Shown here: one piece after another, positions 54,984 to 58,613 of the stretch | Numbering within the stretch: position 1 is the first letter of the stretch | How the letters are laid out: each line of letters opens with the position of its first letter | From: Chitinophagaceae bacterium | Lineage (GTDB): Bacteria; Bacteroidota; Bacteroidia; Chitinophagales; Chitinophagaceae | Reading direction: 5' to 3' | Assembly: GCA_026415715.1 (NCBI GenBank) | Contig: JAOAGO010000009.1 | Location: 1 to 64,000, forward strand | DNA: 64,000 bases | Notes under the pieces: generated by a model | What the model was told of the DNA's origin: nothing | The model's input: only the letters and a program-made list of their open reading frames with translations | Databases searched by the model: none | Translations under genes and position numbers: made by a program

Positions 54984-55283
54984 TCAGGCTGCATTTTTCT
55001 CTTTATGCTTTTTGATTTGCGTAACCAGGGAATCAAATGCATCATCAAATGATTCCTCAAATGATTTACTGGTTGCTTTTACAAAAAATGAATGCTTGGG
55101 TATCTCTAAACGAATTTCTGCCACTTTATCCTTAATGGTGTGCACCACATTATCCAGTTTTAAAAAAACATTAATGCTTATGATTCTTTTTGAAAACTGA
55201 CTGAGTTTTTTTAATTTTTTTTCTACATGAGCAAGCAGCTTCTTATCGGCGCTGAAATGCACGGTATGAATATTCACTCTCAT
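54984..55283 (-). CDS. hpf: ribosome hibernation promoting factor HPF/RaiA family, short form
   Basis: 99 residues from the ATG at 55283 (MRVNIHTVHFSADKKLLAHVEKKLKKL). The block VEIRLEIPKHSFFVKATSKSFEESFDDAFDSLVTQIKKHKEK is typical of the HPF/RaiA fold. It binds the small-subunit decoding site in stationary phase. The short form lacks the C-terminal dimerisation domain. A longer frame to 55358 is not supported by the family. It lies between the tRNA-tuf operon and xerC, a conserved order in Bacteroidota. Confidence 0.88.
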   Translation of the reverse strand: MRVNIHTVHFSADKKLLAHVEKKLKKLSQFSKRIISINVFLKLDNVVHTIKDKVAEIRLEIPKHSFFVKATSKSFEESFDDAFDSLVTQIKKHKEKNAA

Positions 55284-55632: not shown

Positions 55633-56532
55633 TTAAGGCTTGGGATGATGTTTTTGATGAATTTCTTTAAGTTTTTCAATGGTGTTGTGGGTATATACCT
55701 GAGTAGCGGCCAGACTGGAATGGCCCAGTAGTTCTTTTACGGCATTTAATCCTGCTCCGCGGTTCATCAGGTGAGTGGCAAAAGTATGCCTTAAAATGTG
55801 AGGGCTTTTTTTGTTTAGGGTGGAGAATGCAGATAAATATTGATTTATAATATTCCACACATATTTCGGGTAAAGCGGCTTTCCTTTTTCGGTAACAATC
55901 AGGGTATCTTGCGGATTTTCAAACTTTTTGTTTTTTTCCATAATATAATGCTCTATATGTTGCATCAGATTTTTACTTACCGGGATAATCCGTTCTTTTT
56001 TTCCTTTCCCCAACACTTTTATCTGACATGCCCTGAAATCAACTTGTTTTTCTTTAAGCTGAATCAACTCGCTCAAACGCATTCCCGTTGCGTAAAAAAC
56101 AGCTATCAGCAGCTTTGCATTTGCTTCCTTCCAGCTTCCGGACAAATCCTCCAGCGAATTCAGCATTAACTGAACTTCATTTTCTTTCAAAAACTCCGGA
56201 ATTTTCAGATCAACTTTAGGAGAAATAATTTTATTTAATGGTGAAGATTCAGCGTAATTGTTTTTCAAGCAAAACTTGTAGAATGATTTTAAACATGAAA
56301 TTTTACGATGTATAGACCTTGCCGTAATTCCCTTTTCTTTCAGGGCTGCCATCCAACTTCGCACATGTATATGTTGTATCTCATTTACCGTTAAGCTGCC
56401 ATATTGCGTGTTAATATATTCGGTAAAATCATTCAGGTCATTCCGATATGATATGACGGTATGAGAGGAATATCTTTTTTCGAACGTCAGATAATTCAGA
56501 AAGAGGGAAGTCAGATGGGAAAAAGAATCCAT
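55633..56532 (-). CDS. tyrosine recombinase, XerC/XerD type
   Basis: 299 residues, normal Xer length. An N-terminal SAM-like core-binding domain (about 1-95) is followed by the catalytic domain. The catalytic set is Arg in TGMRLSEL, His and Arg in HILRHTFATHL, His in LLGHSSL and the nucleophile Tyr in TQVYTHN. Xer proteins resolve chromosome dimers at dif. Its place next to rpsU and hpf in a housekeeping cluster suggests XerC rather than a mobile-element integrase. No dif site was identified. Confidence 0.88.
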   Translation of the reverse strand: MDSFSHLTSLFLNYLTFEKRYSSHTVISYRNDLNDFTEYINTQYGSLTVNEIQHIHVRSWMAALKEKGITARSIHRKISCLKSFYKFCLKNNYAESSPLNKIISPKVDLKIPEFLKENEVQLMLNSLEDLSGSWKEANAKLLIAVFYATGMRLSELIQLKEKQVDFRACQIKVLGKGKKERIIPVSKNLMQHIEHYIMEKNKKFENPQDTLIVTEKGKPLYPKYVWNIINQYLSAFSTLNKKSPHILRHTFATHLMNRGAGLNAVKELLGHSSLAATQVYTHNTIEKLKEIHQKHHPKP

Positions 56533-56604: not shown

Positions 56605-56796
56605 TCAGACTTTTCCGCTTGCCAGTTTCTGACGATAAATAGCCCGCTGAATTTCATTTCTTCTTTTTACCGATGGCTTGGTGTAAGCCTGGCGTTCTCT
56701 GAGCTGAATTAAAATTTTTGCCTTTTCAAATTTCTTTTTATACTTTTTCAGAGCTTTATCAATGTTTTCGCAATCCTTTGAATCAATAATTAACAT
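56605..56796 (-). CDS. rpsU: 30S ribosomal protein S21
   Basis: 63 residues, highly basic (MLIIDSKDCENIDKALKKYKKKFEKAK, then KPSVKRRNEIQRAIYRQKL). bS21 binds near the 3' end of 16S rRNA and in Bacteroidia helps to hide the anti-Shine-Dalgarno sequence. This gene has a strong Shine-Dalgarno (56808-56815), unlike its neighbours. In Flavobacterium, ribosomes lacking bS21 favour such messages, giving feedback control. It precedes the xerC-type gene by 72 bases. Confidence 0.95.
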   Translation of the reverse strand: MLIIDSKDCENIDKALKKYKKKFEKAKILIQLRERQAYTKPSVKRRNEIQRAIYRQKLASGKV

Positions 56797-56807
56797 ATTA
56801 AATTAAA

Positions 56808-56815
56808 CCTCCTTT
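56808..56815 (-). promoter_or_regulatory. strong Shine-Dalgarno sequence of rpsU
   Basis: On the minus strand AAAGGAGG lies 11 bases before the rpsU ATG. The genes I checked in this window otherwise lack such a motif, so this site stands out and probably serves bS21 autoregulation. Confidence 0.8.
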
Positions 56816-56829
56816 TTTTTTGAGAACCG

Positions 56830-56837
56830 CAAAGTTA
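56830..56837 (-). promoter_or_regulatory. -7 promoter box of rpsU
   Basis: On the minus strand TAACTTTG fits TAnnTTTG. It is 33 bases before the ATG, leaving room for a leader that contains the Shine-Dalgarno. No clean -33 element at 19-20 bases. Confidence 0.5.
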
Positions 56838-57533: not shown

Positions 57534-58613
57534 TTACGACTTAATCTGACAGTTGTGGTGTTTTTGATGGTTTGAAAATTTTGTTTCAAGCATCTTTTCT
57601 TTAGCCAAATATAGTGAATCTTTAAATGTTTGCATGGGAGTTTTTCCAAAACAATATTTTCCACTGTGGGTTCTTTCTTCGTTGTAGGCCGCTATCCAAT
57701 CATCTAAATCGTTTTGCAAATCTTCTATGGAATGATACATTTTTCTGCGAAAGGCAACGGCATAAAACTCGTTCTGAATGGTACGGTGGAATCGTTCACA
57801 GTTGCCAATGGTCTGCGGGCTTCGGGCCTTTGTTTTGGAGTGTTCTATAGCTTCTAAAGCTAAATAGAGTTCATACTCGTGATATTCGGGCTTACCACAA
57901 TATTCGGTACCTCTATCGGTCAAAATACGCAGTAGCGGTATTTGATATTCTTCAAAGAAAGGCAACACTTTATCATTGAGGAAATCGGCTGCCGTGATGG
58001 CGTTCTTGTGATCATACAGTTTGGCAAAAGCCACCTTGGTATAAGTGTCAAGGAAGGTTTGCTGATACATTCTGCCTACGCCTTTGATGTTGCCTACGTA
58101 GTAGGTGTCCTGTGCGCCCAGATAGCCCGGATGTTCCGTTTCGATTTCACCTTGTGCCTCTTGCTTTTCTTTCTTACGTTCCAGGGCTATCAGTTGGGCT
58201 TCGGTGAGGATACCGCCTTCTTGGGCGACTTTCACCTCCAGCGCTTTGAGACGCTTGGCGAACGTCTCCAGGTCATGCCGTAACCATACGCAACGTACCC
58301 CTCAAGGAGAAATAAATATCCCTTTCTTTTTCAATTCGTTTGATACGCGAAGCTGCCCCAAAGCCGGATTATCAAAGGTCATTTGTACCACGGCTTGCTC
58401 TATGTGCTCTTTGATTCTGTTTTTCAGGTTGGGCTTCTTTCGGCTTACTTCCCGCAGGGCTATTTCGCCTCCCAAATCGTACATCTGTTTGATGCGATAG
58501 AAACTATCGCGGCTATAACCCATCACTTTGCATGCTTGGGATACGTTTCCTAATTGTTCTGCTCATTTTAGCAGTCCTACTTTTGTTTTGATTAGTTTTG
58601 TTTCGGTGTTCAT
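57534..58613 (-). pseudogene. IS481-family transposase with two in-frame TGA codons
   Basis: Reading from the ATG at 58613 gives one continuous frame of about 359 codons in three pieces, broken by TGA at codon 17 (58563-58565) and codon 104 (58302-58304). The N-terminal part is an HTH domain (KVMGYSRDSFYRIKQMYDLGG, then NPALGQLRVSNELKKKG). The C-terminal part is the DDE/rve integrase core ([30 protein letters not shown], and a region around [19 protein letters not shown]). The second TGA sits where relatives have Gly, and the first where they have Leu. The frame runs through the end repeat and stops 8 bases outside the element. Not active unless suppressed. Confidence 0.85.
57544..57554 (+). 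repeat. left terminal inverted repeat of the IS481 element
   Basis: ATCTGACAGTT, matched by its reverse complement at 58667-58677. Confidence 0.75.

Follow-up and report, generated by a model that had tools for sequence, protein, structure and literature searches.

An extended Shine-Dalgarno motif before rpsU in a Chitinophagaceae genome is consistent with bS21 autoregulation

The rpsU locus and the 16S tail

The window, i.e., the whole 64,000-nucleotide stretch of Chitinophagaceae DNA that was analyzed, carries rpsU on its minus strand, together with a leader, a predicted promoter box, and two genes further downstream.

56605..56796, minus strand: rpsU, ribosomal protein bS21, 63 aa, Tyr54 present (Pfam PF01165, E = 1.3e-15)
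56807..56817, minus strand: extended Shine-Dalgarno (SD) motif AAAAAGGAGGU, within A9GGAGGU (11 bp, -13.9 kcal/mol with the relatives' 16S tail AUACCUCCUUUUU)
56830..56837, minus strand: TAACTTTG, predicted Bacteroidota-type -7 promoter box (from the sequence; the SD falls inside the predicted leader)
55633..56532, minus strand: xerC-like tyrosine recombinase, the next gene downstream of rpsU (Pfam PF00589/PF02899; SD absent, dG 0)
54984..55280, minus strand: ribosome hibernation factor of the S30AE family, hpf (Pfam PF02482)

The best match of the bS21 protein among solved structures was chain 7jil_z (E = 2.4e-15), to which residues 1 to 59 align without gaps, and residue 54 of the window's protein is Y; we take 7jil to be the Flavobacterium johnsoniae ribosome. 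On the minus strand, the region upstream of the gene is ordered TAACTTTG-CGGTTCTC-AAAAAAAAAGGAGG-TTTAATTTAAT-ATG, and the leader, A9-GGAGG-UUU, lies downstream of the box (read TAACTTTG...AAAAAAAAAGGAGGTTTAATTTAATATG). The GGAGG core occupies positions 56812 to 56808 and the ATG positions 56796 to 56794, with 11 nucleotides between them. A sequence-only reading of this DNA had placed a strong SD 11 bases before the rpsU start, and this was borne out, as was the identity of the open reading frame as bS21. Its proposal of a -7 box that leaves the motif in the leader likewise agrees with the predicted leader. The label of TAACTTTG relies on what we take to be the Bacteroidota-type -7 consensus, and TAnnTTYG was present 22 to 55 nt before the start in all 31 same-genus leaders. 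A clear -33 box, sought by eye upstream of TAACTTTG, was not seen. When a 135-nt stretch reaching upstream past the likely transcription start was folded, GGAGG came out as only partly accessible, with an unpaired probability of 0.34 to 0.86.

The gene order is shared with relatives. Among the 74 named loci with room downstream (from the 80 nearest listed relatives), the xerC-like recombinase adjoins rpsU in 70 and a hibernation factor lies at most 1.7 kb downstream in 67. The hibernation factor gene probably closes a row of genes, rpsU-xerC-hpf. Where labelled below phylum, the 80 relatives presumably represent Chitinophagales genera or groups, apart from two Sphingobacteriia or Sphingobacteriales. 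Near rpsU, two further minus-strand frames encode an integrase core (57534-58235; PF13683) and a winged helix (58302-58526; PF13551). As these domains sit in neighbouring frames, they are probably two parts of a single insertion-sequence transposase beside the rpsU region.

No 16S rRNA was detected in the window's own assembly (2.63 Mb, 96 contigs) by an Rfam model or by a pattern with up to three mismatches, and the pairing tail AUACCUCCUUUUU (nucleotides 1532-1544 in the numbering of PMC9976891) was therefore borrowed from relatives. The 16S 3' end CTGGA-AUACCUCCUUUUU-AGAG was read in five same-genus genomes and one genome of the same order (six of the 58 genomes that had a match), and the AUACCUCCUUUUU tail also in two same-family genomes. 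Five of 48 named relatives had a 16S tail match; four of these show AUACCUCCUUUUU only, and one metagenome-assembled genome with two different tails was left out.

With this tail, the rpsU leader forms the 11-bp helix AAAAAGGAGGU at -13.9 kcal/mol, and with a tail of the Flavobacterium (F. johnsoniae) type it forms 9 bp at -12.1 kcal/mol. The helix is extended on its 5' A side, where five A pair with the five U of the tail. The GGUAU side that is usual in the genus is lacking, and the UUU after GGAGG is unpaired with U1533 of the relatives' tail. The energies given here are from ViennaRNA, and the published criterion, pairing with the organism's own tail below -13 kcal/mol (PMC9976891), is based on free_scan; the window's -13.9 refers to the borrowed tail.

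SD strength at other gene starts

We scored 609 called gene starts, covering 862 kb (33% of the genome), with ungapped energies, as well as a mock region about 28 to 50 nt upstream of the start. The output of the simple gene caller lacked rpsU, which was scored by hand; GTG and TTG starts and weaker cores were scored in the sampled third only. Ranking starts by SD strength, a check that the sequence-only reading had named, put rpsU ahead: no first-ATG score among the 609 reached its -13.9, and the top four were -12.2, -12.2, -9.5, and -9.5. The many equally strong motifs elsewhere that the same reading had named as evidence against itself did not appear in this sample (best first-ATG score -12.2). 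When any start was admitted, the best score was -13.0, at an internal GTG.

At ordinary starts, SDs are rare and show no overall excess over the mock region, with 55 versus 75 hits at -3 or better and 6 versus 5 at -7. Only the strongest scores slightly exceed the mock region (5 versus 1 at -8; 2 versus 0 at -11). The two genes at -12.2 encode an Hsp20 and a FAD-binding dehydrogenase subunit, while those at -9.5 are rplE and one more. Among the ribosomal protein genes scored (those called in the sampled third, plus rpsR), rpsU ranks first, followed by rplE (-9.5) and rpsR (-7.0).

Within the window, the strongest of 47 other starts scored only -5.5 kcal/mol, so the contrast between rpsU and its surroundings is real, and the statement that other starts carry no such motif stands at this scale. 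However, it does not extend to the genome, which has other SD genes. The Hsp20 and dehydrogenase genes (-12.2), rplE (-9.5), and rpsR (GGAGG, -7.0) make the description of rpsU as "the one gene" with a strong SD too strong, and strict uniqueness was ruled out on these grounds. The existence of SDs nearly as strong at other genes in the genome counts against autoregulation.

Genome-wide, the string AAGGAGG-N3-14-ATG occurs 39 times compared with 48 times for the reversed control, and it is thus not enriched; GGAGG-N3-14-ATG occurs 536 times versus 418 for the control. Seven of the 39 AAGGAGG sites, rpsU included, open an ORF judged gene-like. The other six score -9.5 to -12.5 and comprise Hsp20, the FAD-binding dehydrogenase, and rplE, all with Pfam hits, and three ORFs (67, 107, and 150 aa) for which no Pfam hit passed the cut-off. 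Not counted as gene-like were three ORFs of 60 to 92 aa and a further one, 86 aa long, that has no Pfam hit. The first ranking of the 39 sites used RNAduplex energies, which allow bulges and give an order different from that of the ungapped values; in this ranking, 4 of the 38 other sites were at or below rpsU's -14.7, and they open ORFs of 1 to 16 aa (three) and 4 aa (one).

The near-perfect SDs at -12.2 lie before L239:11939-12418 (Hsp20) and L252:7977-8960 (a FAD-binding subunit of the molybdenum-dehydrogenase type). Judged by these motifs, the two genes could respond to bS21-less ribosomes or could be recent arrivals.

Conservation in the genus and covariation with the 16S tail

Counting the window's own, 27 of 31 same-genus rpsU leaders are at -13 or better, and the remaining four keep GAGGUA(U) at -6.7 to -7.8; the mock region reaches -7 or better in none of the 31. 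Spacing and flanks vary while these 27 leaders keep the motif, the usual form of which is AAAGGAGGUAU or near and fits AUACC of the tail. In other families of the order, 3 of 22 leaders (19 plus G037, G043, and G057, with the second G051 copy left out) are at -13 or better. Two of these three come from one genus (-15.2 and -16.3) and pair through the A-run and the GGUA side together. Among named relatives (the 80 nearest listed by bS21), 41 of 80 leaders are at -13 or better, or 35 of 74 when six leaders identical to genus ones are removed, and most of the Chitinophaga leaders listed fall short of this strength. The leaders of Niastella vici and Sediminibacterium goheungense, both Chitinophagaceae, are at -14 or better. 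This proportion agrees with the published figure, according to which about half of the Chitinophagales satisfy the criteria for bS21 autoregulation set out in the text of PMC9976891. With the window's protein counted, 127 of the 130 bS21 proteins in the relatives' set have Tyr54.

Seven same-genus relatives (L112-L118) carry CCUCC in the leader, with GGAGG following six bases on. From the sequence, the two could form a small hairpin, which would mask the SD in cis.

We considered rplE, with its own motif at -9.5, as a second conserved SD case in the genus and rejected it, as only 2 of 14 genus members are at -10 or better; among order relatives the count is 4 of 15 (from the best 30 of 52 L5 matches), and one further order locus gave no ATG. 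Conservation is what distinguishes rpsU, with 27 of 31 leaders at -13 compared with 2 of 14 at -10 for rplE. It is fair to say that no start stronger than that of rpsU was found and that its extended motif is the one retained in the genus.

An ordinary constitutive SD would raise rpsU translation by normal ribosomes with no bS21 feedback. Such a function would be in line with the SD-like motifs at Hsp20, the dehydrogenase, and rplE in the same genome and with the four order relatives, of 15 read among those best 30 matches, that have rplE at -10 or better. According to the text of PMC9976891, stable complexes on rpsU mRNA are also obtained in vitro with F. johnsoniae ribosomes of the wild type. 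However, the lack of SD enrichment over the mock region at ordinary starts, the retention of the extended motif by the genus at rpsU and not at rplE, and the 3- to 4-fold or greater increase of an F. johnsoniae rpsU reporter upon bS21 mutation or depletion (described in the same text) all speak against it, and we consider a purely constitutive role improbable.

In a survey of the class, the 16S tail was readable in 83 of 345 Bacteroidia genomes. G172 (two tails) and G335 and G307 (genus and tail the same as those of G383) were excluded, and bS21 was sought in 80 genomes and found in 78. Six genomes were added, giving a final set of 84 genomes with 87 rpsU leaders and 16 tail types; one of two different tails was used for G283, and a weak extra PF01165 match in G377, below the cut-off, was left out. 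A strong rpsU leader, at -10 or better with its own tail, was found for 25 leaders, in 25 of the 84 genomes. Taking one strong leader per genus (16 genera), the own tail was best or joint best of seven tails in all 16 cases (4 tied). The own-tail mean was -15.9 compared with -12.9 for shuffled tails, and none of 5,000 shuffles was as low, in a test that ignores the tree and is favored by the choice of strong leaders by their own tail. In a second test, leaders were chosen by any of the 16 tails to remove this selection bias. The own tail was then among the best in 23 of 25 cases, with a mean of 1.7 tails tied for best; in the two exceptions, another genome's tail had an advantage of 3.3 and 0.9 kcal/mol. 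In 24 of the 25 strong leaders, the base facing position 1533 is paired, and only 1 of 87 mock regions was strong with any tail.

The matching changes are visible at individual positions. At 1532-1533, tails with AU occur with leader GGAGGUAU, those with AC occur with GGAGGUGU, and those with UU occur with GGAGGUAA. One genome of the window's order has a CCUCU core, and its rpsU leader, AAAGAGGUA, fits at -10.1, with the 16S end and rpsU on a single contig. Two genomes, both of one genus, have a UCUCA core, and in 2 of 2 the rpsU leader fits it. The UCUCC core, in place of CCUCC, was found in 9 of the 59 genomes that lack a strong rpsU motif (G258, G113, G342, G390, G228, G158, G195, G283, and G363, seven of them one genus) and in 0 of 25 with one. 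Tyr54 is present in 75 of 87 bS21 proteins of the survey and in 21 of 25 of those with strong leaders.

Covariation of the leader with the tail supports real pairing. We consider it somewhat probable that, across Bacteroidia, the rpsU leader coevolves with the 16S tail along the full length of the extended helix, beyond the core and in the CCUCU variant; that the core is free to drift where rpsU loses its motif; and that the window's species has moved the helix to the other side, pairing the A-run with the U-run. The finding that AAGGAGG before ATG is no more common than its reversed control (39 versus 48) would suit an A-rich leader that happens to hold GGAGG by chance or composition. However, both this covariation and the retention of a -13-or-better motif in 27 of 31 genus members, despite changing spacing and flanks, make such an origin highly implausible.

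Three Bacteroidia genomes have two bS21 genes each (L329/L344, L310/L345, and L320/L346), one with a strong SD and one with none. Going by their leaders, one copy is perhaps inside the feedback and the other outside.

Probable autoregulation by bS21 and its known counterparts

We assign a probability of roughly 0.8 to the reading that the rpsU motif is an extended SD serving as the sensor of bS21 autoregulation. This reading draws on the motif and its strength, on its retention within the genus, on its class-wide covariation with the tail, and on the nearest structures of bS21, bS18, and bS6. The hiding of the tail, the preference shown by ribosomes without bS21, and the feedback would follow by analogy with the F. 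johnsoniae work, as far as it is set out in the text of PMC9976891. In ribosomes bearing bS21, the 16S 3' tail would be hidden in a pocket of bS21, bS18, and bS6, and these ribosomes would start on SD-less mRNAs. Ribosomes short of bS21 would have a free tail able to base-pair with the rpsU leader (about 11 bp), and their translation of rpsU would raise bS21 until the supply is restored. The earlier suggestion that bS21-less ribosomes translate rpsU from this motif is thus supported insofar as the 11-bp pairing, Tyr54, genus conservation, and covariation fit the model in that text. Against this reading, the circuit appears to be dispensable, since 4 of 31 genus leaders are weak and only 3 of 22 other-family order leaders and 25 of 84 Bacteroidia genomes are strong. 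The incomplete presence of Tyr54 in the class survey, the unpaired UUU after GGAGG, and the partial accessibility of GGAGG in the fold also speak against it.

The other pocket proteins, bS18 and bS6, each have chains of 9i5v and 7jil as their best two structure matches, as expected of platform proteins of the Bacteroidota type. The rpsR gene, encoding bS18, has GGAGG at -7.0 in the window's genome (L199 / L249:15934). The pocket may therefore be regulated through bS18 as well, in a two-gene circuit compatible with bS21 autoregulation, with an rpsR SD that is weaker yet more uniformly kept in the genus. GGAGG lies 8 to 9 nt before the rpsR start in all 17 genus members examined, window's included, out of 34 that had a match, and three of these motifs are extended to GGAGGUAU (-11.1); a score of -7 or better is seen in 6 of 13 order relatives, including two from one genus that reach -15.3 (leaders from the best 30 of 56 bS18 matches). 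SDs at rpsR have also been published for other Bacteroidia orders (text of PMC9976891). However, -7.0 or better is reached at 6 of 609 first-ATG starts and in 5 of 609 mock regions, and the motif shares bases with the end of the rpsF coding region, so that its retention may partly reflect protein constraint. We hold the two-gene circuit as a tentative and rather doubtful extension. As further observations, the rpsR GGAGG sits inside the end of rpsF with differing codons around it, and the two order relatives with -15.3 at rpsR also have strong rpsU leaders.

The mechanism of bS21 autoregulation, the covariation in Chryseobacterium, and the use of each genome's own extended tail are already in print. 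An explicit covariation at 1532-1533 or a CCUCU case was not found in the published text covered here, and the supplement of PMC9976891 and Jha et al. may contain either. The present results provide sequence evidence, independent of experiment, for selection on rpsU-tail pairing, and the covariation outside the core and the motif losses offer natural tests of whether rpsU keeps the anti-SD intact.

Another use of the sequestered tail is the frameshift SD of prfB (RF2) in Bacteroidia, which differs in acting during elongation (text of PMC8710568); the exact frameshift pattern GGNGGTATCTTTGA was not found in the whole genome. In Chryseobacterium and relatives, the anti-SD takes the variant form UCUCA, and the rpsU SD naturally covaries with it (Jha et al., cited through PMC9976891 and PMC8710568). 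The leader likewise follows changes of the 16S tail here, and UCUCA with a fitting leader was met again. However, most changes in our survey lie outside the core, at 1532-1533, in addition to the one CCUCU core in the window's order.

The closest counterpart is rpsU of F. johnsoniae, in which bS21 helps to hide the 16S tail and bS21-less subunits translate rpsU, restoring bS21 (McNutt et al. 2023, PMC9976891; on tail hiding and bS21-less ribosomes, see also the texts of PMC8710568 and PMC10783764). Both cases share the bS21 gene, an extended SD-tail pairing of about -14 (here with the borrowed tail), Tyr54, and few other SD genes. In contrast to F. johnsoniae, the window is placed by its relatives in another order (Chitinophagales), has the lineage tail AUACCUCCUUUUU and an extension on the A-run side, and comes from a genome with several further clear-SD genes. 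As it fits the published self-regulation circuit of related bacteria, the predicted rpsU circuit described here is a further example of that circuit and not a new kind of system, and it extends the published case of specialized ribosomes to an uncultured Chitinophagales lineage.
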